From positions 2,476,501 through 2,540,500 of the forward strand of contig NZ_CP123872.1 of assembly GCF_031598375.1 (NCBI RefSeq): a stretch of 64,000 nt of DNA. The letters are read 5' to 3'. Below, piece by piece: positions 6,390 through 25,233 of the stretch. Under the pieces are notes generated by a model. It saw only the letters and a program-made list of their open reading frames with translations. It was not told where the DNA came from and searched no databases. This stretch comes from Temperatibacter marinus (GTDB lineage Bacteria; Pseudomonadota; Alphaproteobacteria; Sphingomonadales; Kordiimonadaceae). A program made the translations under genes and the position numbers. Position 1 is the first letter of the stretch. Every line of letters begins with the position of its first letter.

Positions 6390-6662
6390 TTAAATTTTGT
6401 CTGGACCTGGTGCAGCATCCTCAGTGAAGGCGTTAAGTCCGATGATCGTATACGTATCTTTTAGACCGGGGGCTGTCTGAACCTTGCTATTCACAAAGCG
6501 CCCAATTTCTTGATCGTCGCTTAATGTGAATTGGGCGAGCAAGTCGTACTGTCCGGATGTGGAATAAACACTTCTGACTTCTTCAACTTCGTCTGCAAGG
6601 TAAGCTGCAACATCATAGGTTCTACCAAGTTCACATTTTATTTGGACAAATACGGTTTTCAT
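6390..6662 (-). CDS. Stand-alone Lrp/AsnC ligand-binding (RAM) domain protein
   Basis: A 90-residue protein that is only the effector-binding domain of the Lrp/AsnC family, without a helix-turn-helix. It starts MKTVFVQIKCELG, has the VRSVYSTSGQYDLLAQF core strand-turn typical of RAM domains, and ends after a YTIIGLNAF strand. An upstream GTG (6674) would add four residues, but the GAGGT ribosome-binding site lies within that extension and is well spaced for the ATG at 6662. Such single-domain members oligomerise and bind amino acids; the partner here is unknown. Confidence 0.8.
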   Translation of the reverse strand: MKTVFVQIKCELGRTYDVAAYLADEVEEVRSVYSTSGQYDLLAQFTLSDDQEIGRFVNSKVQTAPGLKDTYTIIGLNAFTEDAAPGPDKI

Positions 6663-6994
6663 AACAGACCTCACATTTTTGCTTTGTTACTCAATTGGCA
6701 TGGTTAGTATCATAATAGCTGTCACTCTTAAAGAGTAGTTTATAAATCGAATCCATTTTAGGGTAATTTCAACCAGCGATCATCACAGAGTCATAGGAAC
6801 CTGCTCATTCCAAAAAACAACAAAAGCGGCGGACTTTCTCTTAACCAGCAGAAATTGTTTGCATTTTTAGAAATTAGGGACATTATAAACCATCTGTGAG
6901 AGGGAAACTGAATAGCGTTAAGATAATGGTAACGTTTTGTTAATCAATTTTAGCTTAATGTCTATTTAGATAATACAATAATTAGGGAATTACT
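6663..6994. promoter_or_regulatory. 332-nt divergent control region between the AsnC-domain gene and the chemotaxis array
   Basis: No gene is seen. Visible elements: a 13-bp palindrome ACTCTT-A-AAGAGT at 6724-6736 that could be an operator; a TAGGGACATT block at 6875-6884; and GTTAAGATAATGGTAAC at 6917-6933. The last two recur in the same order upstream of flgB (54181-54216). AGGGA precedes the GTG start at 6995. No convincing sigma-28 or sigma-54 promoter was recognised. Confidence 0.45.
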
Positions 6995-7279
6995 GTGTCT
7001 CAATCTGAATCTGTATATACACTGCCTGCAGTGTTGGACCTACTTTGTGTGGAAAGTCTACATGAGACGTGTTCACGATTGTTGGACAATGATTGTGATG
7101 TCACACTCGATACTTCAGATGTTGTTCGAATTACGACATCTGCAATTCAAGTGTTATATGCCCTCTCTCTTTCTTTGCAAAAGCGCGGAAACCAATTACA
7201 CATAATAAATCTTAACGATACAGTTAAAGAAGCATTCAAGATGATCGGTCTTGAAAATAATCTGAGTGAATGGAGTTAA
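6995..7279 (+). CDS. STAS-domain protein, non-canonical, first gene of the chemotaxis array
   Basis: A 94-residue single STAS (anti-sigma-antagonist) domain. It opens with a GTG codon preceded by AGGGA. The helix-capping loop that in SpoIIAA/RsbV reads D-S-x-G is here T47-T48-S49-A50, so the conserved aspartate is lost and the phosphorylatable serine position is a threonine. The remaining fold signature (VTLDTSDVVRI, then LHIINLNDTVKEAFKMIGL) is intact. It is four bases from a cheY gene. A second, canonical STAS protein is encoded at 17213, so the two may have distinct partners. Regulation by threonine phosphorylation is possible but not shown. Confidence 0.82.
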   Translation: MSQSESVYTLPAVLDLLCVESLHETCSRLLDNDCDVTLDTSDVVRITTSAIQVLYALSLSLQKRGNQLHIINLNDTVKEAFKMIGLENNLSEWS

Positions 7280-7282
7280 CTA

Positions 7283-7648
7283 ATGGCAAAAAAGGTACTA
7301 GCTGTTGATGATAGTAAGACAATGCGAGACATGGTGTCTTTTACTTTATCAGGCGCAGGATTTGAAGTCATTCTAGCAGAAGACGGGGCGCATGCCTTGT
7401 CTGTTCTAAATGGCCAGTCGGTTGATTTGGTTATTACGGACGTGAATATGCCGAATATGAATGGAATTGAGCTTGTTGGTAAGCTTCGAGAGAATCCACT
7501 CTATAAAACAGTGCCCATTCTGATTTTAACGACAGAATCTGATGACTCTATCAAAGGCCAAGGCCGTGCTGCTGGCGCTACTGGCTGGATTGTTAAGCCT
7601 TTTGTGCCCGATAAACTTCTTAAAGTTGTTGCGAAAGTATGCCCCTAG
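7283..7648 (+). CDS. cheY: CheY-like single-domain response regulator
   Basis: A 121-residue receiver domain. Acidic residues D9/D10, phosphoacceptor D53 (in VITDVNMPNMNG), T83 and K105 (in WIVKPF) are all present, so it should be phosphorylated by the CheA encoded 34 nt downstream. It has no output domain and would act by binding the flagellar switch or another target. The TTES segment after strand 4 is common in CheY proteins of this kind of cluster. Confidence 0.92.
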   Translation: MAKKVLAVDDSKTMRDMVSFTLSGAGFEVILAEDGAHALSVLNGQSVDLVITDVNMPNMNGIELVGKLRENPLYKTVPILILTTESDDSIKGQGRAAGATGWIVKPFVPDKLLKVVAKVCP

Positions 7649-7682
7649 TAGATAACCCCACCCAAGCTGAAAGATCAAATTA

Positions 7683-10076
7683 ATGCTGCCATCTATGCAA
7701 GATGATCCATTTTATCAGTTCAAAGTCACATTCTTTGAAGAGTGTGATGAATTACTGGGAAATATGGAATCCTATCTTACTGACCTTGAAGAAGGGGATC
7801 ATGACAGCGAGCTTTTAAATGCAATATTTCGGGTTGTGCATTCTATTAAAGCAGGGGCTGGTGCTTTTTCTTTCGAGCGTATGGTTAATTTTACGCATAG
7901 ATTTGAATTCCTCTTAGATAAATTGAGAGATGGATCAATGACTGTGGATGATACAATCGTCCGCGTTCTCTTTGATAGTAATGACGTGTTGGTCGATCTA
8001 GTAGATTTTGCGCGAAATGGTGCTGAAACACCCAGAGAATTTGGGGCGCATGAGCTGGCTAAGATTGAAGCGCTCATTAATGGTGAGTCTCTTCCTGAGG
8101 AGGGGGCGTTGCCAGCAGCCGCAGGATCAGCTGTACCAGAAGTCGAGGGGGAAAAGTCTAAGGCAGGCACTGATGCAGGATCCAAAGTTTTTGAAATTGA
8201 TTTTTCTCCTAAGCCTTCTCTCTTTCAACATGCGAATGAACCTTTGCTAATTATCCGTGAACTCTCAGGCCTTGGAGATCTTAAGGTTAGCTTGGATAGT
8301 TCTATGATTCCCGAACTCCATGTGATGGAACCGGAAAAAAGTTATTTCACATGGACGTTTGAACTGAATACAGAAGCCTCACGAGATGATATTGATGAAG
8401 TCTTTGAATTCGTTGTTGATGACTGTGACCTTACAATTGTTGAAAAGGATTGCACAGGAAAAATAACAGGCGTTGATGTGACGGCTGCAAGTGATTTAGG
8501 CGATGATGACTTTGGCTTCTTTGTGAATGAAGAGGATCTTCCAGGCAATCAGGCTTCCTCCAATCAGTCTGCAGAACCCACAGTGGATCAAGAGGACGAT
8601 GATGATTTTGGCTTCTTCGTTGATGTGGATGCAGGTGAAGTTGAGGCTGGTGTCCAGACAAATGATGAAAATTCTAAGTCTTATAAAGCAGATAGCTTGC
8701 CGGTGGAAGCGCCTGCTTCCTCTGAGGCGACTGCGTCAGTAAAGCAGTCCTCTATGCCACAGGCTCCAGTGCCTCAGACAGCAAATGCGCCCGTTGCCGA
8801 AAAACCTACTTCTGTGGCAAAAGTCAGCTCAATTCGAGTGGATATTGACCGAGTTGATAAGCTTGTCAATATGGTCGGCGAGATTGTAATCACGCACTCT
8901 ATGCTCGCTTCGGAACTGACAGTTTTACAAGAAGACCGTCAGACCTCCCTTGGCAGTGGTATCGAAGAAATGTCAATGCATATCCGTGAATTGCAAGATA
9001 ATGTGATGGCCATTCGCATGCAGCCCGTGAAATCTGTTTTCTCGCGGATGCCACGAATTGTACGGGATGTATCAAAAAAATTGGATAAAAAAGTTAAATT
9101 GGTCACTGAGGGCGAGAATACAGAAGTCGATAAAACTGTTGTTGAAGAACTTGCTGATCCATTGACGCATATGATTAGAAACTCTCTAGATCATGGCCTT
9201 GAAACCCCTGACGAGCGCATTGCAGCCGGAAAGCCTGCAGAGGGGAAAATTCTTCTGTCTGCTGAACATAGAGGGGGGCGTATTGTCATCACTATTGCTG
9301 ATGATGGGCGCGGTATAAACAGACCGAAGGTTCTTGAATTGGCAAAAGAGAAGGGTGTTGTTGAAGAGTCTCAAGTGCTTTCTGATGAGGAAATTGACAA
9401 CCTAATCTTTGCACCCGGCTTCTCGACTGCAGACGAAGTGACGGACCTATCTGGCCGTGGAGTAGGAATGGACGTTGTGCGCCGGAATATACAGTCTTTA
9501 GGCGGGCGCGTATCGGTCGTGAGTGAACCTGGTGTAGGATCGCGATTCCAGTTAACTTTGCCTCTCACTTTGGCAGTGCTCGATGGTATGGTTGTTGGTG
9601 TTGGAGAGCAAAAATTTGTTATTCCAATCAATAATATCATTGAAACATTACGCCCAGAGAAAGAAGCAATAAAAACGCTTGTTGACGGCACGCATGTGAT
9701 TAAAGTTCGAGGTGAATATATTCGTCTTGTGGAGACAAGAAAGACTTTTTCTGTGCTGAATGCTGAGACAGATTTAAGTAAAAATCTTGTTGTTCTTGTG
9801 GAGGCTGATGGCGATAGAACCATCGGTATCGTCGTCGACAAATTATCAGGACAACAGCAAGTTGTGATTAAGTCTTTAGAGGCTAATTTTGGACGTGTTG
9901 AAGGCATAGCCTCCGCTACAATTCTAGGGAACGGTAGTGTATGCCTCATTCTTGATATTGATGGGCTAGCGGATATGGATAGTTCAAATCAATCCGACAC
10001 AGCTCACTATTTAAAATCAAATATGCTATCGAGCGGAATTTCATCTGACGTTTCAGAGAATGAAGCAGCGCAGTGA
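7683..10076 (+). CDS. cheA: Chemotaxis histidine kinase CheA
   Basis: A 797-residue kinase. In order: N-terminal Hpt domain with phosphorylation site H53 (VVHSIKAGAGA); an acidic, low-complexity linker (about 150-380); dimerisation helices (IRVDIDRVDKLVNMVGEIV, about 385-440); HATPase domain with N box (HMIRNSLDHGLE, about 495), DDGRGI near 541 and GRGVGMDVV; and a C-terminal CheW-like regulatory domain. The linker carries the same octapeptide DDDFGFFV twice, at residues 274-281 and 306-313. It phosphorylates CheY, CheB and perhaps the receiver proteins of this array. Start is uncertain: ATG at 7683 or 7695; neither has a strong ribosome-binding site. Confidence 0.95.
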   Translation: MLPSMQDDPFYQFKVTFFEECDELLGNMESYLTDLEEGDHDSELLNAIFRVVHSIKAGAGAFSFERMVNFTHRFEFLLDKLRDGSMTVDDTIVRVLFDSNDVLVDLVDFARNGAETPREFGAHELAKIEALINGESLPEEGALPAAAGSAVPEVEGEKSKAGTDAGSKVFEIDFSPKPSLFQHANEPLLIIRELSGLGDLKVSLDSSMIPELHVMEPEKSYFTWTFELNTEASRDDIDEVFEFVVDDCDLTIVEKDCTGKITGVDVTAASDLGDDDFGFFVNEEDLPGNQASSNQSAEPTVDQEDDDDFGFFVDVDAGEVEAGVQTNDENSKSYKADSLPVEAPASSEATASVKQSSMPQAPVPQTANAPVAEKPTSVAKVSSIRVDIDRVDKLVNMVGEIVITHSMLASELTVLQEDRQTSLGSGIEEMSMHIRELQDNVMAIRMQPVKSVFSRMPRIVRDVSKKLDKKVKLVTEGENTEVDKTVVEELADPLTHMIRNSLDHGLETPDERIAAGKPAEGKILLSAEHRGGRIVITIADDGRGINRPKVLELAKEKGVVEESQVLSDEEIDNLIFAPGFSTADEVTDLSGRGVGMDVVRRNIQSLGGRVSVVSEPGVGSRFQLTLPLTLAVLDGMVVGVGEQKFVIPINNIIETLRPEKEAIKTLVDGTHVIKVRGEYIRLVETRKTFSVLNAETDLSKNLVVLVEADGDRTIGIVVDKLSGQQQVVIKSLEANFGRVEGIASATILGNGSVCLILDIDGLADMDSSNQSDTAHYLKSNMLSSGISSDVSENEAAQ

Positions 10077-10107
10077 GTGTATTGAAAGGGAATTGGGAAG
10101 AAAGCTT

Positions 10108-10650
10108 ATGGTAGAAACATCATCCATCTCTTCAGACTTTGATCCTAGAAAAATAGGGGTCATTCAAGACGATAATTCCTCCGTTGATGCAGATGGGGGA
10201 GATATTGTCCAGTTTGTATCATTCAAAGTCGGAGATTCTGAATACTGTGTAGATATTATGGCAGTCAGAGAAATCAAAGGGTGGGCAGAAGTAACAGATT
10301 TGCCTAATACGCCTGAATTTGTCAGGGGTGTCTTAAATCTTAGGGGTATCATTGTTCCTATCTTTGATCTTCGCTGTCGTTTTGGACAAGGCTTAACAGA
10401 ATGTACTGCCTTGCATGTAATGATCATCTTACAAGTGGAAGATAGGATCATGGGCATCCTTGTTGATGCCGTCTCGGATATTATCACGGTCAACACAAAT
10501 GAAATATTGCCCGCACCGACGCTTGATAAAAAGTCTGAACAGAAATTTATATCAGGACTAATGACGGTCCAAGAGCGAATGGTGGCGCTTTTGGAAATCG
10601 AAAAATTATTCGACCTTGAGACAATCGTCGAAGCAGCCATAGAAGAATAA
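10108..10650 (+). CDS. cheW: Chemotaxis adaptor CheW
   Basis: A 180-residue CheW domain protein linking receptor and CheA. Core strands are visible: [20 protein letters not shown], then [20 protein letters not shown] and [12 protein letters not shown]. The open frame extends upstream to an ATG at 10060 inside cheA, but a GGGAAG ribosome-binding site seven bases before the ATG at 10108, and the lack of homology-like sequence before it, favour the shorter form. It is slightly longer than a minimal CheW because of a roughly 30-residue N-terminal extension. Confidence 0.93.
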
Positions 10651-10711
10651 AAGTCCACATCAGGCTTTAAGAAAGAAAAAAGGGAAAAGACGTAAGTCTT
10701 GGAGAAAAAAA

Positions 10712-13423
10712 ATGAACTTTTTGAAAAACTTGAAAATATCTGCAAAATTAGCATCTGCCTTTGGGGTCTTGATTATAATTCTGCTTGTTGTCAGTGGACT
10801 AACGTTAAACAGGCTTTCTTATATTGAAGACAGGACTAATTGGACTGAACATACCTATAATGTTCTTGGCGAATTAAACGGATTGACCAAAGCGATGATC
10901 AATATGGAAACAGGGGTGCGTGGCTATCTTGTTTCAGATAATGATACTAACTTCCTTGAGCCCTACAATGCAGGTCTTGTTGCGTTCGACAAGCATTTTA
11001 AAACAGTAAAGCGACTTACCTCTGATAACCCTGGTCAACAAAAACGCCTGGATGATATCAACAAGCTTGCAAAAACCTGGATAAATGAGATTGCAAAACG
11101 TGAAATTAGTTTGATGAGCAATCCTGCAACATGGGCACAGGCGCGTGCACTTGAAGCCAGCGGGGCAGGGAAGACCAGCATGGATGCCACGCGCGCTAAG
11201 ATTGATGAAGCAGCGCGTATTGAGCGGGAGTTACTTGTTGCCCGGTCTACTGAAATGCATCAAGCCTTCACAGATACCAGTAACAATACAATTATTGGGT
11301 CCGTCATTTCAGTTCTAATTGCAATGTTTATGGTGTTTACACTTTATAGAGCTATTGCACGACCTGTTAAAGAGGTTACGGATTCAATGCTTGTGCTTGC
11401 AAAGGGCGAAACCAGTGTGGAAATCCCTGAAGTTCAGAGTGCTGATGAAATCGGTGATATGATTGAAACCGTTCATGTCTTTCGTGAAAATGCCATTCAA
11501 AGTAAAAATTTGGAAGACAAAATAAAAGAAGATTCTGCTTTGTCAGAAAGCATTTTAACTGCCATCAGTCGTGCACAGGCCGTAATTGAGTTTAACTTAG
11601 ACGGTTCCATCATAACGGCTAATGAAAACTTTTGTGGTGCTATGGGATATACTCTGGAAGAAATTCAAGGAAAACATCACAGTATGTTTGCGGATCCTGA
11701 ATATGCTGCCGGCCATGAATATAAAGAATTCTGGGCTAAATTGAACCGCGGCGAGTTTTTTGCTGGCCAGTATCGCCGTTTAGGTAAAGGCGGTAAGGAA
11801 GTATGGATTGAGGCTTCCTATAACCCTATTTTTGATGCCTCAGGCAATGCTCTTAAAGTTGTTAAATTTGCGACTGATATTACAAAATCTCGTCAAGAAG
11901 CGGACTTTAACTTCAGAATTATGCAAGCAACGAAGGGTGCTAAAGCGAATATTATGCTTGCTGACCTGAATTATGATATCGTTTATATGAATGAAACTAT
12001 GATTTCGATGATGAAAAATGCTGAAGCTGATTTAAAAACAGAGTTAAAGGATTTTGATACAGATAATCTCATGGGCGCGAATATTGATGTCTTCCATAAA
12101 AATCCTGATCACCAGCGCAAACTATTAGCAAAACTGACAGATACATTTGATACAACCATTGTTGTTGGAGGGCGGACCTTTAATCTGATTGCTATTCCAA
12201 TCTTTGATTATCAAGGAGACCGTATCGGTACCTCCGTAGAATGGTCTGATATGACGGATGAGTTTGCTATTGAAGAAGAAATCAAGACTGTTGTGAATGC
12301 TTCTGTCTCTGGGGACTTCTCAAAGAGACTTGAAACAGACGGTTTGGATGGATTCTTCCTCAATGTTGCAAATGGTATAAACATGTTTGCTGAAACAACC
12401 TCGAACGGCTTGAACGATTTCTCAGTGATGATGAATGCGATGTCGAGTGGGGATCTTAATTATAGGATTACCAATGAATATCTTGGTCTGTTTGATGAAT
12501 TAAAACAGGCTGCAAATGCCTCTTCAGAGAAATTAGCGGAAACCCTCTCTAGAGTAATTCTAACAGCCAATGAAGTCAGCAATGCTTCTACAGAAATTGC
12601 TTCTGGCAGTGCTGACCTTTCTCAGCGTACAGAGGAACAGGCCTCTAGCCTAGAGGAAACGGCAGCCGCAATGGAAGAAATGGCGACAGCGGTTAAGACA
12701 AATGCTGAAAATGCTCAAGAAGCCAACAACCTTGGTAAAAGCGCACGGACTGTTGCTGAAAAAGGTGGTGAAGTTGTCAATTCAGCTGTTGATGCAATGG
12801 ATCGTATTGAAGATAGTTCGCAGAAGATTTCTGATATTATCGTTGTCATTGATGAGATTGCTTTCCAGACAAACCTTCTTGCCTTGAATGCGGCGGTTGA
12901 AGCTGCCAGAGCAGGGGATGCAGGAAAAGGCTTTGCAGTGGTGGCCTCTGAGGTAAGAGCTCTTGCACAGCGTTCCGCAGAAGCTGCGAAAGATATTAAG
13001 GCACTTATCGCGGATAGTACGTCTCAAGTTAAAGACGGTGTGAGCCTAGTGAATGAAGCTGGAGGACAATTGAACGAAATTGTTACTTCTATTGGACAAG
13101 TTACAGGACTTCTTGCAGATATCGCGAATGCAAATGCTGAACAGTCCTCTGGTATTGAAGAAATTAATAAAGCAGTTTCTGAGATGGATGAAGCAACACA
13201 ACAAAATTCTGCTCTTGTTGAAGAAACTGCCGCGTCTGCTCAAGCAATGACGGACCAGTCTGAAGAAATGCGCGATATGGTCTCCTTCTTTAAAGTTGGA
13301 GAAGGGCAGCAGTCAGGCAGTAGGACTAAATCTCGGTCTTCAGCTTCCTCTAATGCCCAGAGTAGTGCAGCGTCTTCCATGGCTGATGTAGACAGTTCTG
13401 AAGATGACTGGGCTGAGTTTTAA
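10712..13423 (+). CDS. Methyl-accepting chemotaxis protein with CHASE3, HAMP and two PAS domains
   Basis: A 903-residue receptor. TM1 is about residues 14-32; a periplasmic CHASE3 domain ([12 protein letters not shown]) follows; TM2 is about 196-214; HAMP about 213-265; PAS1 about 285-395 (IIEFNL-type core, [20 protein letters not shown]); PAS2 about 400-520; the MCP signalling domain about 630-870, with the hairpin tip [21 protein letters not shown] near 715-735. The C-terminus is DDWAEF, which fits the xWxxF tether that binds CheR/CheB in other receptors. It may sense both periplasmic and internal (redox or small-ligand) cues. It is the only transmembrane receptor of the array. Confidence 0.95.
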
Positions 13424-13444
13424 GATTAATTTCGAGCTAAGCAT

Positions 13445-13469
13445 TGATCAGTCCTTTGGGGGCTGATCA
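13445..13469 (+). repeat. Intercistronic hairpin before cheR
   Basis: Ten base pairs, TGATCAGTCC against GGGCTGATCA (one U-G pair), with the loop TTTGG. No T-tract follows, so a classical terminator is unlikely. It could be an mRNA processing or stabilising structure that lowers expression downstream of the abundant receptor gene. Confidence 0.55.
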
Positions 13470-13489
13470 CTGTATTGAAAGCTATTTAT

Positions 13490-14398
13490 ATGAGTAAATC
13501 TGCTAACTTTTGGCAATCTATAGAGTTTTCTGAGAAGGAATTTAATGAACTACGGGATGTGGTTTATGACCTTACAGGTATTGCTCTTAAAGATAACAAA
13601 AGAGAAATGCTATATTCCAGACTTTCAAAAAGATTAAGGCAGTTAAATTTAAAGTCGTTTTCGGCCTATATCACACTTCTTAAAGGTCCGAAGCAACAAG
13701 ATGAACTTGGCCACTTAGTCAATGCTGTTACAACCAATTTGACTCGGTTTTTTAGGGAAAGTCATCATTATGATCATTTACAAAAAGTGGTCATTCCTCA
13801 GATTATAGCACGCGCGGATAAAGGAAATATTAGTCCCTTTCTGATTTGGTCAGCGGGGTGCTCTTCTGGCATGGAGGCATATTCTGCTGCGATGGTCATA
13901 TACCGTCACTTACCAAAGAAATATCATAAACTTGTAAAAATATTAGCGACGGATATTGATACGAATATGATTAACACTGGGAAGGAAGCTTGTTATCAGA
14001 CCAAACATAAAGAAACGCTGCCTTTAGAATATCAAAAGTATTTTGCACAAGATAGTAAAGACGATAAATATTCTCACATTGTTGAAGAAGTTAAAAAGTT
14101 TGTTCATTTTAAGTATTTGAATTTATTGCATAAATGGCCAATGACAAAGAATTTTGATGTTATATTTTGCAGGAATGTCATGATTTATTTTGATAAACCG
14201 ACACGAAACACGCTCGTGAATAGATATAAGGATCAGCTGCTTGAAGATGGGTATATTTATCTGGGTCACGCAGAATCTTTAGTTGGGCAAGAAGTTGATG
14301 TGAAGGCTATTGGAAAATCAATTTTTCAAAAATTTAAGACGGGGGAAGAAGTCAATCGTACCTCCCAACTTGCTGCTTTTAGAAGACAATTATCATGA
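13490..14398 (+). CDS. cheR: Chemoreceptor methyltransferase CheR
   Basis: A 302-residue SAM-dependent glutamate methyltransferase. The N-terminal helical domain includes the VTTNLTRFFRE segment; the SAM-binding motif is WSAGCSSGMEAYS, followed by ILATDIDTNMI, FDVIFCRNVMIYF and YLGHAESL. It methylates receptor glutamates against CheB. I chose the ATG at 13490; the frame also contains an upstream TTG at 13475. The 3' end overlaps cheD by four bases (ATGA), implying coupled translation. Confidence 0.93.
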   Translation: MSKSANFWQSIEFSEKEFNELRDVVYDLTGIALKDNKREMLYSRLSKRLRQLNLKSFSAYITLLKGPKQQDELGHLVNAVTTNLTRFFRESHHYDHLQKVVIPQIIARADKGNISPFLIWSAGCSSGMEAYSAAMVIYRHLPKKYHKLVKILATDIDTNMINTGKEACYQTKHKETLPLEYQKYFAQDSKDDKYSHIVEEVKKFVHFKYLNLLHKWPMTKNFDVIFCRNVMIYFDKPTRNTLVNRYKDQLLEDGYIYLGHAESLVGQEVDVKAIGKSIFQKFKTGEEVNRTSQLAAFRRQLS

Positions 14399-15012
14399 GT
14401 AGTCAACGTAAAGGGAATGCTGCTTTACTCCCAGAAAAGAAGCGGTATTTTGACCCTAGAACTGGCTTTATGATGGTCAAAGTCCTTCCTGGAGAGCATT
14501 ATGTGACGGCTGATCCCGTTGAAGCTATCGTAACAGTTTTGGGGTCGTGCGTCGCAGCTTGTATCAGGGACCCCGAAACAGGCATTGGTGGTATGAACCA
14601 TTTCATGTTGCCGGGCGATATCAATACATCCTCTGCAGGATCAGCCATGCGATACGGACATTTTGCAATGGAAGTGCTGATCAATGAGATTTTAAAAACC
14701 GGCTGCCCTAGAAACCGTCTTGAGATTAAGGTCTTTGGCGGAGCCAGCGTAATGGGTGCAGCCAATCAAGTTGGGCATAAAAATGCTGAATTCGTTTTGG
14801 ATTACCTTAAAAACGAGGGCTTATCTATTGCGGCACAGGATTTAGTGGGAACTCATGCTCGGCGTATTCAATATTCGCCCATTTCTGGTAAGGTTGAAAG
14901 ATTGATTTTACGTAGAAAACAAGATGATGTCGTCTTTAAAGATGAAACGAAATTTGCAGGAAAAATTAAAGATACAGCAAGTAAAGCTGGTACAGTTGAA
15001 CTGTTTGATTAA
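14395..15012 (+). CDS. cheD: Chemoreceptor glutamine deamidase CheD
   Basis: A 205-residue CheD. Catalytic C52 lies in GSCVAACIRD and catalytic H69 in GGMNHFMLPGD; the LEIKVFGGASVM strand follows. It deamidates receptor glutamines to create methylation sites. It has a short N-terminal extension and a C-terminal tail of about 35 residues ending in VELFD, which resembles the acidic-aromatic tails of other proteins in this array. It starts within the cheR stop and is nine bases before cheB. Confidence 0.93.
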   Translation: MSSQRKGNAALLPEKKRYFDPRTGFMMVKVLPGEHYVTADPVEAIVTVLGSCVAACIRDPETGIGGMNHFMLPGDINTSSAGSAMRYGHFAMEVLINEILKTGCPRNRLEIKVFGGASVMGAANQVGHKNAEFVLDYLKNEGLSIAAQDLVGTHARRIQYSPISGKVERLILRRKQDDVVFKDETKFAGKIKDTASKAGTVELFD

Positions 15013-15020
15013 GGCATAGA

Positions 15021-16070
15021 ATGACAGAGACAATAAAAATATTGATTTGCGACGATAGCGCCCTAATCAGGTCGATCTTAACAGCCATACTATCTGCTGA
15101 AGCGGATATGGAGGTTGTAGGGACAGCCATTCATGCAAAAGATGCGCGGGAAAAAATTAAAAAATTCAACCCTGATGTGCTCACTCTCGATATTGAGATG
15201 CCGGGGATGGACGGATTGTCATTTCTAGAGAAGATAATGACTTTACGCCCAATGCCTGTGGTTATGATTTCATCCCTAACTCAAAAGGGTACAGCGTCTA
15301 CGATGAAGGCCATGGAACTTGGTGTGTTTGAGGTTGTTGGAAAACCCACCCATGGTTTGAAGGAAAAGTTCGATATTATTTCGGATGATATAGTTTCCAA
15401 AGTCCGCGCTGCGGCGACAGGTAAAGTCAGCCCAATCAATAGGGATGCTTTCCTAGACAAGCCAGAAGATGGCATTAAGCAAACCTCCACTGAGTTTGAT
15501 CTTATTGCCATAGGCTCGTCCACTGGCGGCGTCGTAGCAATTAAAGAGATTATTCCATATCTTTCAAAATATTCTCCGCCTGTGGTCATTACACAACATA
15601 TGCCTCCAGGTTATATAGAGAGTTTGGCTAAAAGATTGAATGAGCATTCAAAAGTAACGGTAAAAGAAGCAGAGGATAACGAAACGCTTCAAACTGGCTA
15701 TGTCTACATTGCGCCGGGTGATCAACATTTAGAAGTCATCCGCTCAGGGGCCATAATGAAAACCAAGCTCTCTGATGGGGAAACTGTCTCAGGTCACAAA
15801 CCTTCAGTGGATGTGCTCTTTAACTCCATCGCTAATCTAAGCTTATGCAAGGCAATAGGCATTATTTTAACGGGTATGGGGAAGGACGGTGCGCAAGGCT
15901 TGCTCTCCATGCGTGAAAGAGGGTCTAAGACAATTGGTCAAGATGAAGCAACAAGTGTTGTTTACGGCATGCCAAAAGCTGCTTCTGAGATTGGTGCTGT
16001 TGAAGACGTATTGCCTTTACAGAAAATCCACACAGAGCTTAAAGCTTTGTGCTGGCCAGAACAAAGGTAG
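15021..16070 (+). CDS. cheB: Protein-glutamate methylesterase CheB
   Basis: A 349-residue two-domain enzyme. The receiver domain has phosphoacceptor D57 ([12 protein letters not shown]). The C-terminal methylesterase domain has the catalytic triad S167 (GSSTGG), H193 (TQHMPPG) and D289 (GMGKDGA), and ends with [15 protein letters not shown]. It removes methyl groups from receptors and is activated by CheA phosphorylation. All catalytic residues are present. The next gene starts six bases after its stop. Confidence 0.95.
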
Positions 16071-16075
16071 GCTTT

Positions 16076-17191
16076 ATGTCTGAGACTGATAAAATAAGCA
16101 TGCCAGAGGCCATCGCATCAGCAGATATGGAAAGGTTACTTTCACTGTGGACTGGCTTGTCGAAAGCTGAACAAAATACTTTCCGTTTTCTTATAGATGA
16201 ATCTGAAAATATTAATTCACTCCTCGAAAAAGAGACCAGTGGTTTGCAGGCACATTTTTATTCGCTGATCAATATGACCAACGAGCAGAGTACGATCATT
16301 AAAAAATTGCGCGATGAACTGGCAATCATTCAATTGTCTGATCGGAAAATATCCTTATCTGAGATGGTAGATTTTTTTAATACTGTCTTCACGGAAAGTG
16401 TCTCAGCGACACTGGAAATATCCCAGACAGCCGTTGAATTAGCATTCTCTTTGGATGATACTGTGGGCAATATGGAAAATGTTGTAACACAGATCACCAG
16501 TATTGAAGCGATCAACAAGCAAACGAATCTTTTGGCTTTGAATGCAAAAATTGAATCAGCTCGAGCAGGAGAAGCAGGGAAGGGCTTTGGTGTCGTTGCT
16601 GACGAGGTTAGAGAGCTTTCAAAGAATATTAATCATGTGGCAGAAGATCTTCGGTCTAAGGTGAATACTGTTTCCGACGGGATTTCTAATAGCCATCATA
16701 AACTTCAAACCCTCGCAAACCTAGATATGTCTGATACCTTGAAGGCTAAAGATAGTATCGAAGAAATGATGCAAGGCTTAACCGATAAAAACCAAATGCT
16801 AGAGAATACTTTGGATCAATCCAGGTCTGTATCAGAGAAAATTTCAGGCGATATTTCTGTGATGGTTCAAAAATTCCAATTCCAAGACAGAGTTAGTCAA
16901 CTTCTTGCGGAATTTGATTCGAGTTTGAAAGTTATTCATGAGTATCAGGAGATGATTGAGCAGGCTATTCAAAGTCGAACAGTCTCTGATTCTCAGATTA
17001 TAAGTGACATTAATGAAGATTTTTACGAACTCTTGTACGAGAAAACGACTTTAGGGGAAGTGAAAAGCCGACTTTCAGAAAAGTTTGCTATAGATTCCGG
17101 TGAGGCGATAGGTCATAGTGGTCAAAATGCTAATCGCAGTGATTTATCTAGTTTAGATCTTGATGATGAAGACGATATTGAATTATTTTAA
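16076..17191 (+). CDS. Soluble receptor-like protein with MCP signalling tip and CheZ-like DxxxQ motif
   Basis: A 371-residue protein without signal peptide or membrane segment. Residues about 147-185 form a chemoreceptor hairpin tip ([18 protein letters not shown], then [14 protein letters not shown]), the part that contacts CheA and CheW. Further on, helix [11 protein letters not shown] places D271 and Q275 in the D-x-x-x-Q spacing of the CheZ phosphatase active site (FQDLTGQ in CheZ). The extreme C-terminus is DDEDDIELF, acidic and ending in an aromatic residue like the CheY-binding tail of CheZ. It may therefore be an array-linked CheY phosphatase; plain cytoplasmic receptor is the alternative. 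The frame opens at 16049 within cheB, but AGGTAGG precedes the ATG at 16076. Confidence 0.8.
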
Positions 17192-17212
17192 TTTGATGGA
17201 AGGGGTATAACC

Positions 17213-17509
17213 ATGGAATATTCAATTAACGATAACGGTGGCAACGCAACGGTTGCAATTAAAGGAAATATTACATTTTCTCAAAATGTAAGGTTTCGGC
17301 AAATGCTTAAAGATATCTCTGACGCGTCTGTAAAAAGCTGCCTCTTAGATATAAGTAATGTGGAAATGGTTGATTCTGCAGGCCTTGGTATGTTTCTGAT
17401 TGCAAAAGAGCAATCTGATACAGAAAACTGGAAACTTTCTGTTACTGGCGCATCTGGCCATGTAGAAACTATGTTAAAATTAACGAAACTTTCAGATCTC
17501 TTAGCTTAA
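17213..17509 (+). CDS. Canonical STAS anti-sigma-factor-antagonist-like protein
   Basis: A 98-residue STAS domain with the classical loop VDSAGLG, S55 being the residue phosphorylated by RsbW/SpoIIAB-type kinases in this family. It is followed within ten bases by a receiver-PP2C phosphatase and then an HATPase protein: the three components of a partner switch. The expected cycle is that the HATPase phosphorylates S55 and the PP2C enzyme removes the phosphate. Its final target is not visible in the window. Confidence 0.9.
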   Translation: MEYSINDNGGNATVAIKGNITFSQNVRFRQMLKDISDASVKSCLLDISNVEMVDSAGLGMFLIAKEQSDTENWKLSVTGASGHVETMLKLTKLSDLLA

Positions 17510-17518
17510 AAGGTATCT

Positions 17519-18712
17519 ATGTCTGTTTCTAGTGATCATACGCTCTCAGAGCTTTTAGGCGACGTTTATTCTGCATCAATATTAATTGTTGATGATATGT
17601 TATTGATGCAGAAGATGATTGGCCAATCTTTAACCAATGCCGGATATAATAATTTATCTTATGCAAGTGATGGACTAGAGGCTGTTGAAGCTATTGAGAA
17701 AAAATGTCCTGATTTGGTTATCCTTGATTTGAACATGCCTAAAATGTCTGGCTATGATGTCTGTCGCCATGTTAGAGCGAATCCTGACTATTCAGGATTA
17801 CCTATTTTAGTGCAATCCGCAGCAGAGAGTCCCAAAGAACGCACTGAAGTGTTCAATGTTGGGGGAACAGACTTTGTTTCAAAGCCAATTAATCAGCCTG
17901 AGCTTTTAGCTCGGGTGCGCATGCATCTTGAGAATAAATTTCTTATTTCTAACCTTACATCATTCCATGATCGGGTTAGAATGGAACTAGAGATTGCGCG
18001 TGAGATGCAGCAAGACATACTCCCATCGAGAGCCTATTTAGATACGCTATCAGAAAGCTGTCATGTAGACATTGAAGCTGTCTATCAGTCTTCGTCAGAA
18101 TTAGGGGGTGATTTGTGGGGGATATGGCCTCTTGAAAAAGGCAAGTTCGGCTTTTTTGTGCTTGATGTATCTGGTCACGGTGTCGGTTCTGCCTTGAATA
18201 CATTTAGGGCCCATTCTGCCATGGCTATCATGGAAGATCTGAAAGAGGATCCTGCTGCATTCTTAACAGAGTTAAACTCTAAAATGGTTAGCGATTTTCC
18301 CACAGGGAGCTTCGCCACGATGTTTTATGCTGTCGTAGACCCTAAAGAAGGGCAAGTCACCTTTGCCGGTGCGGGTGCTCCTAATCCTTTCATTATTTCT
18401 CAGGATGGAGCCTCACAACGTCTTGATAGTTCAGGGTATCCGATTGGTATTATTTCATCCGCTAGTTATGAAAATTTAACGGCATCTCTTAAGCCAGGCG
18501 ATTTAATCTTCGCCTATTCGGATGTCTTTATCGAAGCGCCTGATGATAATGGAGAATTTCTTGGTGACGCGGGTCTGGAGCGCGTAATTCTTGACTGTCA
18601 CAGTCAGGCTAATGATAAAAATGTAATTGATATCTTTATCGCGGATTTCCAGAAACGGGTGCCAGGAAATTTGCCAGATGATTTAACTGCCGTCGGCATT
18701 TATACGGGGTAA
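17519..18712 (+). CDS. Response regulator with PP2C (RsbU/SpoIIE-type) serine phosphatase output
   Basis: A 397-residue protein. The N-terminal receiver has D25/D26 and phosphoacceptor D70 (VILDLNMPKMSG). A short coiled helix (MELEIAREMQQDILPS) connects to a PP2C-type phosphatase domain with metal-binding aspartates in LGGDLWG, DVSGHGVGSAL and PDDLTAVGI. It should dephosphorylate a STAS protein, most likely the one encoded just upstream, under control of receiver phosphorylation, possibly by the CheA of this array. It is four bases from the next gene. Confidence 0.92.
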   Translation: MSVSSDHTLSELLGDVYSASILIVDDMLLMQKMIGQSLTNAGYNNLSYASDGLEAVEAIEKKCPDLVILDLNMPKMSGYDVCRHVRANPDYSGLPILVQSAAESPKERTEVFNVGGTDFVSKPINQPELLARVRMHLENKFLISNLTSFHDRVRMELEIAREMQQDILPSRAYLDTLSESCHVDIEAVYQSSSELGGDLWGIWPLEKGKFGFFVLDVSGHGVGSALNTFRAHSAMAIMEDLKEDPAAFLTELNSKMVSDFPTGSFATMFYAVVDPKEGQVTFAGAGAPNPFIISQDGASQRLDSSGYPIGIISSASYENLTASLKPGDLIFAYSDVFIEAPDDNGEFLGDAGLERVILDCHSQANDKNVIDIFIADFQKRVPGNLPDDLTAVGIYTG

Positions 18713-18716
18713 GGGT

Positions 18717-19640
18717 ATGGCAGAAAGATCAATACATCTCAATAAAATCCTAGCCGTTCACGATGGCAGTGAGCTGTCAAAAAGGATCTGCACGCAACTG
18801 GAACAATCAATCGTAACCTCCGTATCTACGCTTGAGGCCTTTTGGCAAGAACTTAGTCACTCAGATGGTTATCAATCAGTTCTGGTCTTTGATCCGATAG
18901 CTAAAGAAAAAATATATGATTTGTTGTCGGCTTTACCTAGTTTGCCTGTATATATTAACATTCCGATCATTCTTGTTCTAAATGAAACAAATCTTCGATT
19001 TGAGCAGGACTTTGTTAAGATGGGCGCAAATTCAGTGTTAATTTCTCCTAATGAGTATCAAGATGAGAAATTTTACACACTTCTTCGTCAAGAAATTGAT
19101 CTACAGACGTCTCGCTATCAAAGCCTGACACAACTGCAGCCTAATCTGCAGTCAAGAATTACAGCTATACAAAATTTAGAGGAAGGAAACTTCCGCATAC
19201 GAACCCATGAGGAAGCACAGCAGCTTGCGTCTCTCCTCTCTATTTCCTCCAAAGAGCCCACTTTACTTGCTATTGGGATAACAGAATTAGCGATCAACGG
19301 CGTAGAACATGGCATGCTTGGAATTACACATAATGAGAAGAATGATCTCATTGAGAGCGGAACGCTCGCTACTGAAATTGAGCGGCTCTCGAAGTTAGAT
19401 AATAATCGCCAAAAATTTGTTGAAATACATTATTTAAAGTCTCGCGAATATATTAAGTTACGGTTCATTGATCCCGGTAATGGCTTTGATTATTCTACAT
19501 ATCTTGATGAGAAAATATTGGAACAACAAAACCAAAAAATGGCCAAGCATGGCCGGGGCATAAGCATGGCAAAAGCGTGCTTTAACTCATTGAATTACCT
19601 TGGAAAAGGTAACGAAGTTGAGGCCACTTTTCTCTATTGA
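18717..19640 (+). CDS. Degenerate receiver fused to RsbW-like HATPase (putative STAS kinase)
   Basis: A 307-residue protein. The N-terminal 125 residues look like a receiver fold in which the signature is eroded: the first acidic pair is HD, the strand-4 Thr/Ser is N (LVLNET) and the strand-5 Lys is S (LISPNE); a D remains in LVFDP. The C-terminal half is a Bergerat-fold ATPase of the anti-sigma kinase type: N box ELAINGVEHG near 190, DPGNGFD, and HGRGISMA. It is the likely kinase of the adjacent STAS proteins. Its stop codon directly abuts the stop of the converging gene (TGA-TCA). Confidence 0.85.
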   Translation: MAERSIHLNKILAVHDGSELSKRICTQLEQSIVTSVSTLEAFWQELSHSDGYQSVLVFDPIAKEKIYDLLSALPSLPVYINIPIILVLNETNLRFEQDFVKMGANSVLISPNEYQDEKFYTLLRQEIDLQTSRYQSLTQLQPNLQSRITAIQNLEEGNFRIRTHEEAQQLASLLSISSKEPTLLAIGITELAINGVEHGMLGITHNEKNDLIESGTLATEIERLSKLDNNRQKFVEIHYLKSREYIKLRFIDPGNGFDYSTYLDEKILEQQNQKMAKHGRGISMAKACFNSLNYLGKGNEVEATFLY

Positions 19641-20051
19641 TCACAGGTGCCTTTTTAATTTCCTGCCTGCAATTAAGCCAATAGCCATCGGTAGTAAAAA
19701 GTACAGTGCTTCTTCGGGTGCTGTATAAACTAGGGTGAAGGCTGGACCGGGACAAAGTCCGACCAAAGCCCATCCTATACCAAAGAGACAAGCACCGATA
19801 ATCAAACTTTTGTTAATGGGGAGCTGTGCTGGCGAGAGATGCATTTTTTCAATCATGTGGAATTTTTTTAGAAGAAAATAGCCTGGAACAGTCGTAAGGA
19901 TTGCGCCGATCATTACAAAAGCAAGAGATGGATCCCATTGACCTGTAATATCAAGAAAATTAATTACTTTCTGTGGGTTTGCCATTCCTGACAGTAACAG
20001 TCCAAAGCCAAAGATAAGACCACTCAGTATCGCTGTACCTAATTTACTCAT
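19641..20051 (-). CDS. YeeE/YedE-type sulfur transport half (DUF6691-like)
   Basis: A 136-residue membrane protein with about four hydrophobic segments and the motifs FGLLLSGMANP and LCPGPAF, characteristic of one half of split YeeE/YedE (PmpB-like) transporters. The open frame continues to 20153, but an AAGGA site before the ATG at 20051 (MSKLGTAIL) fixes the start. It is the last gene of a sulfide/persulfide operon; YeeE/YedE proteins move thiosulfate or other reduced sulfur species. Confidence 0.85.
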   Translation of the reverse strand: MSKLGTAILSGLIFGFGLLLSGMANPQKVINFLDITGQWDPSLAFVMIGAILTTVPGYFLLKKFHMIEKMHLSPAQLPINKSLIIGACLFGIGWALVGLCPGPAFTLVYTAPEEALYFLLPMAIGLIAGRKLKRHL

Positions 20052-20062
20052 GATACCATCCT

Positions 20063-20479
20063 TTATTTTAGAAGGTAAGTTGTCAGCATTGCTGTAGCCA
20101 TGAAGAGACAGACAGCAACAAAGGAACGCTTTGAAAAACGCGAGAGACCACAAACGCCGTGTCCACTTGTGCAGCCATTTCCAAGGGAGGTGCCTAGGCC
20201 AACGAGTAGCCCAGCTGTCAGTAAATATCCTTTGTGAGTTGTGACTTCAACGAGAGGCGGAGTCGTCATCAGGTTGGAGGCGAGTGCAGCCGCACTTACG
20301 ATGCCAGTAAGAAAACATAACCGCCATTTTTTATCCCCATCTAATAGCGCCGATCGAGCTATACCACTAACTCCCATAATAGCTTTATTCCCAGCCATTA
20401 ATAAGATGGCAGCACATCCGATCAATATTCCACCTCCAATAGCAGTAATGGGCGTGAAATTCACTAAATCTATTGTCAT
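20063..20479 (-). CDS. YeeE/YedE-type sulfur transport half (PmpA-like)
   Basis: A 138-residue membrane protein carrying the hallmark [17 protein letters not shown], whose cysteines line the transport path in YeeE/YedE proteins. It complements the following gene to make a complete split transporter. Its start overlaps the stop of the upstream MBL gene by four bases (ATGA), so translation is coupled. Confidence 0.88.
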
Positions 20480-23299: not shown

Positions 23300-24028
23300 A
23301 TGATAGAAGTTAAAAATTTGGCAAAATCCTTTGGGGATGTACAAGCCATAAAAGATGTTTCTTTTAAAGCCGAAGATGGTGCCATTACAACATTGCTTGG
23401 CGCAAATGGATCAGGAAAGACAACTACACTTCGTGCCATCTCAGGCTTGTTAAAACTTGATCAAGGTCGTGCTTTTGTTGACCGGCTTGACTGCAATTTA
23501 GAAAGCCAAAAAGCACAACAAGTCATGGGGATATTCCCTGATAGTTTTGGACTTTATGTACGGCTCACGACACGCGAGCATCTAGAATATTTTGCAAAAC
23601 TACATGGCATGAGCGGGACGAAAATGCACACAGCCATTGATCATGTTACAGAACTTTTACAAATGCAGGATATTCTAGACAGGAAAGCCGAGGGGTTTTC
23701 TCAGGGTCAAAGAATGAAAGTAGCGCTAGCACGAGCACTTGTTCATCAACCGAAGAATTTAATCTTGGATGAACCAACGCGTGGCTTAGATGTTATGAGT
23801 ATTCGTCTTCTCAGAGGGCTTATGCATCAATTAAAAGAGGCTGGTTGTTGTATTCTCTTTTCATCACATGTGATGGCCGAAGTTTCTGCTCTTTCCGATC
23901 ATATTGTGATGATCGCAGATGGGATTGTTTGTGCTGAAGGTGCAGAAACAGAACTTGTCGCCAACAGTGGATGTTCAAACCTTGAAGATGCTTTTGTGAA
24001 AGTCACAGGCATGGACAAAGCGGCGTAA
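23300..24028 (+). CDS. ABC transporter ATP-binding protein (NatA/ABC-2 type)
   Basis: A 242-residue ATPase: Walker A GANGSGKTT (residues 34-42), signature motif FSQGQRMKVALARAL, Walker B LILDEPTRGLD and the switch histidine in FSSHVM. Together with the next gene it forms an ABC-2 exporter resembling NatAB. Its substrate (ion, drug or peptide) cannot be read from the sequence. Confidence 0.92.
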   Translation: MIEVKNLAKSFGDVQAIKDVSFKAEDGAITTLLGANGSGKTTTLRAISGLLKLDQGRAFVDRLDCNLESQKAQQVMGIFPDSFGLYVRLTTREHLEYFAKLHGMSGTKMHTAIDHVTELLQMQDILDRKAEGFSQGQRMKVALARALVHQPKNLILDEPTRGLDVMSIRLLRGLMHQLKEAGCCILFSSHVMAEVSALSDHIVMIADGIVCAEGAETELVANSGCSNLEDAFVKVTGMDKAA

Positions 24029-24039
24029 GGAGAAGAACT

Positions 24040-25233
24040 ATGTGGTATCAATTTACAGCCGTTTTCCAAAAAGAATGGAAAGATATGATCCGGGATAGAC
24101 GTACAGTTATGGCAGGTCTTGCCTATGCTGTATTTGGCCCTCTCTTTTTAGGGTTCTTCATCCATTTTATGGCTGATATTCAGGACGAACAAAAGGATAT
24201 AACTCTGTTTGTGGCCGGAGCAGAGAATGCACCAGGGCTTGTTCAATATTTAAAAAATAGAGGCCCTAATATTCAAGCAATTGCCTATACAAAAGACATG
24301 GAGAAAACGCCAGCCTCCATTATGGATGACTTGAATGTGAAAAATAGCATTTTACTTGTTATTAAGCCTACATATCAAAAGTCCCTGGCAGAATTTAAAC
24401 CTGCCAAGCTTCATATTTTCACTCATATGGGTAATAAAGAAAATATGATTGGCTTGAGAAATGTTCAAGCCGTTGTTGGTGCATATTCTAGTCAAATCGC
24501 TTCCGTCCGAGTTATGTCTCGCGGTGTAGCTCCCTCTATCCTTGCGCCAATTCGTATGGAAGTAGGGGATTTATCCTCTAGTGGTGTACAGGGTAAAATG
24601 ATCATCGAGCTCATGTTGCTTTACTTTATTCTTGCCCCTTTCTTTGCTTCTATGGCTATTGCTATTGATGTAACGGCAGGGGAAAGAGAACGACAAAGTT
24701 TACAAGTGCTCTTAGCTCAGCCGGTTGATTCTCAAACGTTGATGGCTGGAAAATGGGCAGTGGCAACGGCCTTTGGACTTATTGGCACAATCATCACTGT
24801 AGTTTTAGGAGCCATTATCCTTACAAATTCTCCTCTCGGTGCGCTCGGGGTTAGCCTTGATTTATCAGTATATAATGTTATGCGAATTATTACTGCGATG
24901 ATCCCACTGGTGGCATTTGTGTCGATCACACAGATGTTGGTTTCTTTCTTTGCAAAAAGCTTTAAGGAAGCGCAAACATATATAACGATGCTGTCATTCT
25001 TTCCTGCTTTGCTCGGAATGATGCGCTCTCTGACGGGGAATGAAGCTGAAGGGATGCTAGCACATTTACCGATATTCATGGATTTAGAAGTTCTTTTTCA
25101 TCTTCTTCAAGACGGTGAATGGCTTCTCTCATTCTGGAGTATCGGAGCTCTGATAACTTTTGTTCTTTCTCTTATTCTTTTTGTCTTTGCTTCGAGAAGG
25201 CTTGAAAATGAGAGATTGCTTGCGGGCGAGTAA
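24040..25233 (+). CDS. ABC-2 type permease (NatB-like)
   Basis: A 397-residue membrane protein: a TM helix near the N-terminus, a large extracytoplasmic domain of about 150 residues, then about five to six TM helices from residue 180 on, including the TAGERERQSLQVLLAQPV segment typical of ABC-2 permeases. It begins FQKEWKDMIRDRRT, the usual cytoplasmic lead-in. It pairs with the ATPase 11 bases upstream. Confidence 0.9.
   Translation: MWYQFTAVFQKEWKDMIRDRRTVMAGLAYAVFGPLFLGFFIHFMADIQDEQKDITLFVAGAENAPGLVQYLKNRGPNIQAIAYTKDMEKTPASIMDDLNVKNSILLVIKPTYQKSLAEFKPAKLHIFTHMGNKENMIGLRNVQAVVGAYSSQIASVRVMSRGVAPSILAPIRMEVGDLSSSGVQGKMIIELMLLYFILAPFFASMAIAIDVTAGERERQSLQVLLAQPVDSQTLMAGKWAVATAFGLIGTIITVVLGAIILTNSPLGALGVSLDLSVYNVMRIITAMIPLVAFVSITQMLVSFFAKSFKEAQTYITMLSFFPALLGMMRSLTGNEAEGMLAHLPIFMDLEVLFHLLQDGEWLLSFWSIGALITFVLSLILFVFASRRLENERLLAGE

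Follow-up and report, generated by a model that had tools for sequence, protein, structure and literature searches.

Stage 1 F7 chemosensory clusters of gammaproteobacteria are described, in parts of Ortega et al. 2020 (PMC7184735), with the gene order STAS, cheY, cheA, two cheW, aer2-like, cheR, cheD, cheB, mcpA-like, STAS, serine phosphatase. According to the same parts, the STAS and phosphatase genes shared the fate of the McpA-like gene, being relocated and lost with it as F7 assumed control of the motor; cheZ was found only with F6 systems in stage 1 and stage 2 organisms, and the role of the McpA-like receptor is unclear. The function of the ancestral F7 systems was given as unknown in parts of two papers of 2020 (PMC7184735, PMC7534058). 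In Shewanella, the che1 operon includes the genes of a partner switch, CrsR/CrsA, that acts on RpoS; in sections of Fortier et al. 2022 (PMC9855816), a role of Che1 was called probable, without demonstration. Here we analyse an operon of Temperatibacter marinus that combines a chemosensory array with the genes of a partner switch. It lies at positions 6995-19640 of a window of 64,000 nucleotides, which comprises bases 2476501-2540500 of a single-contig genome of 3.18 Mb. The operon is probably an alphaproteobacterial version of the ancestral F7-type operon, with a non-motor output via the partner switch.

According to its open reading frames (ORFs) and Pfam domains, the operon is a single same-strand run of 12 genes with an intergenic spacing of -22 to +61 bp. 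In gene order these are (E, expectation value; MCP, methyl-accepting chemotaxis protein):

6995-7279, plus strand: STAS1, an atypical STAS protein (Pfam STAS_2, E = 6.6e-11; site alignment of 21 STAS1 proteins)
7283-7648, plus strand: CheY (Pfam Response_reg, 1.9e-27)
7683-10076, plus strand: CheA with Hpt, H-kinase_dim, HATPase_c and CheW domains (Pfam; NCBIfam PRK10547, 564 bits, below the cut-off of 793)
10060-10650, plus strand: CheW (Pfam CheW, 1.5e-36)
10712-13423, plus strand: receptor with the domain order CHASE3-HAMP-PAS-HAMP-MCP (Pfam; NCBIfam Aer2, 508 bits, below the cut-off of 1200)
13475-14398, plus strand: CheR (Pfam CheR, 4.8e-61)
14395-15012, plus strand: CheD (Pfam CheD, 8.6e-27)
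15021-16070, plus strand: CheB (Pfam CheB_methylest, 5.4e-62)
16049-17191, likely start at ATG 16076, plus strand: sMCP, a McpA-like soluble MCP-tip protein of 380 amino acids (Pfam MCPsignal, 1e-21)
17213-17509, plus strand: STAS2, a predicted phosphorylatable antagonist (Pfam STAS, 1.1e-11)
17519-18712, plus strand: receiver-PP2C, a phosphatase of the SpoIIE type (Pfam SpoIIE, 4.7e-41; Response_reg, 1.4e-26)
18717-19640, plus strand: HATPase protein, a putative GHKL kinase or anti-sigma-like protein (Pfam HATPase_c_2, 9.8e-5, below cut-off; profile match to LvrC)

A preceding sequence-only reading of this DNA had described a same-strand run with small gaps that joins a CheYAWRDB set to two STAS proteins, a receiver-PP2C and a HATPase protein, and the ORFs and domains agree with this description. 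Its count of 13 genes has to be corrected to 12, and instead of the single receptor claimed there are two MCP-tip proteins, namely the CHASE3/PAS receptor and sMCP. The gene order was known before, as published stage 1 F7 clusters have the same one, and the same idea is met in Shewanella che1, where CrsR/CrsA form the switch (PMC7184735 and PMC9855816, parts of both), so that any novelty of the arrangement falls away. The proposal that the array acts on the switch thus is an independent arrival at one already printed.

The operon is read as F7-type because its order equals that of stage 1 F7 and because STAS2 and receiver-PP2C recur in related clusters. For this comparison, a CheA was called F7-like if it was 55% or more identical to that of the window, and at most six candidates were scored per genome. 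Across the order of the host, 23 genomes contain such a CheA, and 18 of the clusters were readable beyond cheB. STAS2 together with receiver-PP2C was present in 12 of these 18 (two with shortened PP2C frames, one cut by a contig end). Genome G021 was excluded from the count of 23; there (L087:10993-13290), the CheA frame continues into an sMCP-like C-terminus (765 amino acids), a picture that a deletion joining two distant che-block genes would produce. In a tree of 48 CheA rows calculated by a quick method, the window CheA groups with the CheA of che-STAS clusters from the same order and class, and E. coli CheA groups with L192, L200, L186, L191 and L193. The nearest named relatives of receiver-PP2C, among the matches listed, are alphaproteobacterial (Sneathiella, Sphingomonadales, Thalassospira, Rhodopseudomonas). 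A profile search of contigs yielded, among the matches listed, mostly unrelated receivers; 16 of 80 loci were examined, and L100-L105 were of use.

The switch was also found in the absence of the array. A HATPase relative occurs in 39 of 147 genomes of the order. Within the family of the host (29 genomes), an F7-like CheA is present in 8, all of which contain the HATPase gene; 19 possess the HATPase gene without an F7-like CheA, and two possess neither. A cross-check with CheD gave the same 8 genomes and no other. Eleven module loci without che genes were read, originating from 10 of the 19 genomes and from G079, whose che block lies on another contig than the switch. STAS2, receiver-PP2C and HATPase are intact in all eleven, and ten of these loci come from genomes that are 96-100% complete and have no F7-like CheA or CheD match. 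The switch is therefore a cassette that is separable from the array. Since it is kept without F7-like CheA, it has, or can gain, an input besides this CheA. At the same time, the switch lies beside the array in 7 of the 8 family genomes with F7-like CheA (five were read; G087 and G104 were judged from a cheD-HATPase distance of about 5 kb on one contig), and only in G079 are the halves apart. The sequence-only reading had named a wide separation in relatives as the finding that would speak against it; a comparison of gene order gives a mixed answer: in G079 and G054 the halves lie on separate contigs, and ten genomes have the switch only, as opposed to linkage in the seven.

Several genes recur beside the che-less modules. 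A LysR gene adjoins the HATPase gene or is one gene off in 10 of the 11 loci, and a gene of one tetratricopeptide repeat (TPR) family is found on the HATPase side in all 11. On the STAS2 side, the neighbour is a major facilitator superfamily (MFS) gene in four loci, a gene of the flavin adenine dinucleotide (FAD)-oxidase type in three, a TPR gene in two and another gene in two. In the che-bearing relatives L037, L038, L039 and L042, the same LysR and TPR genes occupy the HATPase side (4/4), and an MFS gene follows beyond the che block in three; L042 is cut inside cheY. The flanking LysR, TPR and MFS genes are the same either way, so this is a common site that is occupied by the che block in some genomes and lacks it in others. 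The locus of the window itself has other neighbours than this set. The best receiver-PP2C tree requires 4 changes between the linked and the unlinked state (4-5 in the bootstrap; well-supported branches force 2). Loss of the che block would be the simpler reading, because the clusters of the sister family and of gammaproteobacteria are linked.

These data bear on an alternative according to which switch and array are neighbours without direct signalling. Some other kinase or phosphotransfer protein would then phosphorylate receiver-PP2C, and co-location would reflect shared regulation only. A model exists in Pseudomonas, where HsbR receives phosphate from HptB; we take HsbR/HsbA to lie outside any che operon of the type found in the window. 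The persistence of the module, with intact receiver residues, next to the same LysR and TPR genes without F7-like CheA or CheD is in line with this alternative, as are the 4 changes on the tree. It accounts less well for the 12 of 18 clusters that combine the F7-like genes with STAS2 and receiver-PP2C, and for the one exception among eight family genomes. Furthermore, a second, different type of che cluster in other Pseudomonadota contains a switch as well. Its genes code for a CheA of about 1,100 amino acids with a receiver, CheW, sMCP, STAS, receiver-PP2C-HATPase, CheB, CheR, CheY, an unknown protein and CheY (many sMCP loci, for example L184, L185, L189, L190, L195, L197-L199, L201-L205). 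We consider neighbourhood without direct signalling unlikely.

The proteins of the switch display the features of Rsb-type systems, i.e. a Ser-containing STAS protein, PP2C aspartates and GHKL boxes, and look catalytically complete. Ser55 of STAS2 sits in the motif D-S-A-G. Of 56 aligned sequences, 54 retain D-S-[AS] there, and the other two are STAS1-like. In receiver-PP2C, the receiver residues D25, D26, D70, T117 and K122 as well as the PP2C residues D198, D216, D335, D387 and D388, which we take to be metal-binding, are invariant in 16 of 16 aligned relatives; Asp70 is the predicted phospho-acceptor. In the HATPase protein, the residues of the N, G1 and G2 boxes are invariant (17/17). Its N-terminus matches receivers by profile; the acceptor column (Asp59) contains Asp in only 9 of 17 relatives, and the receiver-like part of the window protein has, by eye, no beta-5 Lys. 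The kinase part of the "receiver-like HATPase kinase" proposed in the sequence-only reading thus stands, whereas its N-terminal receiver looks degenerate. The best profile match of this protein is Leptospira LvrC (9qih, E = 1.2e-21). A Foldseek search with a structural model ranked LvrC first (E = 6.7e-12), followed by RssB, RsbW and SpoIIAB; the model, built from a three-row alignment, is of low confidence (mean predicted local distance difference test score, pLDDT, of 60) and lends weak support. Receiver-PP2C and HATPase are fused to proteins of 703-723 amino acids in 5 of the 11 che-less loci, and many sMCP loci of other Pseudomonadota code for one receiver-PP2C-HATPase protein, mostly of 562-580 amino acids. 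Because of these fusions, kinase and phosphatase look like one functional unit.

From the observed gene order, domain content, conserved catalytic residues and separability, we infer the phosphotransfer and binding steps as follows. The array formed by the CHASE3/PAS receptor would control CheA, and CheA would act on CheY, on CheB and, most likely, on Asp70 of receiver-PP2C. The PP2C domain would dephosphorylate Ser55 of STAS2, and the HATPase protein would phosphorylate it. By analogy to RsbV/RsbW and CrsA/CrsR, unphosphorylated STAS2 would capture the HATPase protein and thereby free its client. The switch would have to possess, or gain, at least one input besides the array. sMCP would sit on an array via its MCP tip; with its CheZ-type D-x3-Q helix and acidic tail, it may dephosphorylate CheY or the receiver of the PP2C protein. 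A second output besides CheY, as suggested in the sequence-only reading, is plausible in view of the complete switch parts and their position beside F7-like CheA in seven of eight genomes; CheA as its sole input did not hold. That CheA passes phosphate to the receiver of the PP2C protein is, like the rest, our inference.

Several observations weigh against the assignment to F7 and against this scheme. The window contains one cheW gene where stage 1 F7 clusters have two (PMC7184735, in part), and two cheW-like genes are present in the relatives L206, L207 and L209. The basal fork of the CheA tree is open, with long branches meeting there, and the class F7 is not settled by phylogeny. In G054 and G079, the che half and the switch half are non-adjacent, on separate contigs. 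The tie between them is not obligatory, as 4 of the 18 readable F7-like clusters lack STAS2 and PP2C and two contain STAS2 only. STAS1 is a part without an assigned role in the scheme; at the site that corresponds to D-S-A-G of STAS2, it contains T-T-S-A from residue 47. In 18 of 21 STAS1 relatives, the usual phosphorylation site reads T-P-C or T-P-A.

The output of the operon is probably gene control rather than swimming. The same genome contains a second CheA/W/Y/B/R cluster at 2.26 Mb (L036, 2252001-2272000), two separate places with a Pfam CheZ match (L069, L070) and five flagellin-type matches. Sigma-70 region 2 was found in eight places, which correspond to RpoD, two RpoH-type and five extracytoplasmic function (ECF)-type factors. 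None of these eight sigma-70-type genes exceeds the RpoS cut-off, in a search that is blind to sigma-54. Since no RpoS was found, the client would differ from the RpoS target of Shewanella CrsR. The sequence-only reading had seen no sigma factor nearby; an ECF sigma gene does lie at 25242-25724 (plus strand), 5.6 kb downstream of the operon. It follows an ATP-binding cassette (ABC) transporter ATPase and permease (23300-25233), and nothing was found that links it to the operon; as a client it is unsupported. The adjacent 204-amino-acid protein (25727-26341) has no match in Pfam (E 0.001) or NCBIfam (E 1e-10). A search for clients via the genes recurring beside the che-less module (LysR, TPR, MFS and FAD-oxidase-type) revealed no sigma factor or known client among the recurring families scanned with Pfam, which were some of them.

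The missing client is compatible with a further alternative, in which the switch feeds back on the array; STAS2, STAS1 or the HATPase protein would bind CheA, the McpA-like protein or CheY and tune the array instead of gene expression. The two STAS proteins flanking the che genes fit such a role. Moreover, in 28 of 37 sMCP loci the McpA-like gene has a switch gene close by, either one of the STAS2 type (within 1.5 kb) or one for a PP2C protein (within 2.5 kb). Survival of the module without the array and without the McpA-like gene is difficult to reconcile with feedback, and the HATPase protein shares its fold with kinases that bind sigma factors. Feedback as the function of the switch appears quite improbable.

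Besides the probable output via the switch, the operon offers a clue to the McpA-like protein. sMCP contains the MCP tip hairpin inside a helical core, the motif Q277-F278-x-D280-x3-Q284 and the tail DDIELF. Homologues were detected in 31 of 299 Pseudomonadota genomes (E at most 1e-25, own genome included). In a set of 38 homologues, from which L039 was left out as near-identical to L038, the residues D226, Q277, D280, Q284 and the last residue F380 are invariant outside the tip; F278, F70, Q80 and A223 are each kept in 37. The median pairwise identity of the C-terminal halves is 24%, and 37 of the 38 sequences end in [IV][ED][LM]F. The pattern F-x-D-x3-Q is the catalytic pattern of CheZ. In E. 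coli CheZ it reads FQDLTGQ, with D143 and Q147, which we take to be the catalytic residues, and the CheZ C-termini are LLDSLGF (E. coli) and IDALLASFD (the host's own genome). sMCP thus shares with CheZ the D-x3-Q motif and an acidic tail ending in Phe; it differs by its MCP tip hairpin, a different tail sequence and the lack of a Pfam CheZ match over the cut-off. In the linker of CheA there are two DDDFGFF repeats (residues 274 and 306), which recall the acidic Phe tails of sMCP and CheZ and are possible CheY-docking short motifs.

In the sister family, the operon slot after cheB is occupied by a tip-less protein of 151-228 amino acids (ZL, 11 seen) with the same D-x3-Q motif and a tail that is mostly of the DIEFF sort. 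D-x3-Q is hence present in 38 of 38 sMCP and 11 of 11 tip-less proteins. In a profile comparison of ZL and sMCP, the N-terminal parts aligned with 96.6% (E = 5e-10) and the C-terminal parts with 97.8% (E = 9e-13), compared to 1.2% for the MCP middle. The conserved core of sMCP therefore exists both with and without a receptor tip. Because the tip-less form was seen in the sister family alone, loss of the tip is as likely as its insertion. A search with ten ZL proteins in the 299 Pseudomonadota genomes gave one match, an sMCP, and missed another known sMCP; it is too insensitive to show absence.

The overall similarity of sMCP to CheZ is low. The window sMCP has no Pfam CheZ match. Of the C-terminal halves, 25 of the 38 were compared; three match CheZ (best E = 7.5e-4), which is nevertheless the Pfam family matched by most members. 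A profile search of the PDB with sMCP gave no CheZ up to E = 5, the two best rows being a designed repeat protein matched over a 12-residue motif stretch only. Foldseek returned chemoreceptors and no CheZ among the 50 rows listed; the underlying model (pLDDT 64, three-row alignment, MCP turn not formed) gives weak support. In hhalign comparisons, the C-terminal halves of sMCP aligned with CheZ sets in register on the motif, with E = 0.003 in run 1 and 0.0012-0.013 in run 2, for which 11 of 30 CheZ loci had passed the ORF filter. ZL against CheZ gave 0.27 (run 1) and 0.013-0.021 (run 2), and the control of ordinary MCP halves against CheZ 0.012 (run 1, a single-sequence control) and 0.14-0.29 (run 2). 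Values of 0.0012 for sMCP halves against ordinary MCP halves, and of 0.0015 for the latter against the N-terminal part of sMCP, were also obtained. As ordinary MCP halves reach the same E with sMCP, about 0.001 is roughly background for such helices.

When 5,529 ORFs from the loci and the window were ranked with the sMCP C-terminal profile, CheZ proteins ranked next, behind sMCP, ZL and three proteins of 582-589 amino acids from che clusters. The sMCP profile separated CheZ from 63 ordinary MCPs with an area under the curve (AUC) of 0.94, and with a modest 0.67 when the motif was masked; the CheZ profile separated sMCP from MCPs with an AUC of 0.83 under masking. The unmasked ranking is partly circular, because the CheZ class was chosen by its own motif, and the p-values of the ranking are not honest probabilities, the sequences being related. 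The pattern [FY][QE]D...Q occurs in none of the 63 ordinary MCPs. The filing of sMCP as a CheZ was rejected, as the Pfam cut-off is not reached and the profile similarity is near background.

Two interpretations of the McpA-like protein can be set against each other. It may be a CheZ-like phosphatase with a receptor tip, the missing phosphatase of F7 systems, which would dock on an array and set the lifetime of phosphorylated CheY or receiver-PP2C. Since the similarity to CheZ is weak, we advance this as a tentative hypothesis, with somewhat less than an even chance of being right. Alternatively, sMCP may be an ordinary soluble chemoreceptor, in which the D-x3-Q helix and the tail serve other binding; we give this nearly an even chance. 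The standard MCP tip identified by Pfam argues for an ordinary receptor, and so do the scarcity of Pfam CheZ matches, the PDB and Foldseek results and an hhalign similarity to CheZ at the level of ordinary MCP halves. In Shewanella, McpA clusters with CheA3 in the manner of a receptor (sections of PMC9855816). Conservation of Q277, D280, Q284 and F380 in all 38 sequences despite the low identity around them is less easily explained in this way, as are the tip-less form with the same core and tail in the same slot and the absence of the pattern from ordinary MCPs. In the open-access literature searched, no report was found that ties McpA-like receptors to CheZ function. If the phosphatase interpretation is true, an McpA-like phosphatase would link the flagellar array, the site of McpA in Shewanella, to the adjoining stress switch.

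Similar features were seen in larger proteins. Next to cheB of another type of che cluster, three loci code for proteins of 576-589 amino acids with Q-I/V-x-D-x3-Q-R and an acidic LF tail (L097:1932-3680, L098:4121-5851, L099:10944-12713); these may constitute another CheZ-like family. A similar protein of 588 amino acids (L188:2645-4411) contains QYDDITAQ and the tail DIELF.

Concerning the remaining features, the receptor is Aer2-like over residues 233-903; its counterpart in stage 1 F7 clusters is an Aer2-like receptor of the 36H class. In the relative L042 (9756-15851), the receptor of the same cluster comprises about 2,031 amino acids with six stretches matching the window receptor. The operon is bordered by genes on the opposite strand, an AsnC-type gene upstream (6390-6674) and a gene downstream (19641-20153). 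Between 6250 and 20200, nine terminator-like sites were found on both strands, compared to 9.0 expected, i.e. no excess over chance.

The operon is real and well-formed, and a variant of a known system; what its analysis mainly yields is the CheZ-like interpretation of the McpA-like protein and the fact that switch and array occur separately in nature. Should the switch be an output and the McpA-like protein function as a CheZ-type phosphatase, each protein of the ancestral F7 pathway could be tested in turn. What makes the version in the window informative for this purpose is that a search for RpoS found none, that phosphatase and kinase are encoded separately, and that some close relatives have the switch only or the halves apart.

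Compared to LvrC (9qih; parts of PMC13269768), a receiver-GHKL anti-sigma-like regulator of Leptospira, the HATPase protein shares a receiver joined to an RsbW-like GHKL domain. The receiver of LvrC is canonical and phosphorylated at D53; in the HATPase family, 9 of 17 sequences have Asp at the acceptor position, so that a phosphorylatable receiver of this kind was not found despite the matching fold, and the gene adjoins PP2C and STAS genes. With HsbR/HsbA of Pseudomonas aeruginosa (parts of PMC6482189), the switch has in common a receiver, a PP2C domain and a GHKL kinase with a STAS partner; HsbR is one polypeptide, and its system has the reported partners FlgM, HsbD and RpoS. The che1 operon of Shewanella oneidensis (parts of PMC9855816) likewise unites che genes, McpA, Aer2, a STAS antagonist and a receiver-PP2C-kinase switch. 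There, the single protein CrsR sequesters RpoS, whereas the window splits phosphatase and kinase, and no RpoS equivalog was found in its genome. Compared to stage 1 F7 clusters, represented by Vibrio cholerae cluster III and Methylomicrobium (parts of PMC7184735), gene order and the CheR-tether tail of the receptor are in common, the latter ending in WAEF in the window. To this gammaproteobacterial arrangement, the window, as its probable alphaproteobacterial version, adds to the receptor a CHASE3 domain and two segments that look hydrophobic by eye, as well as a separate HATPase kinase gene with a receiver-like N-terminus.

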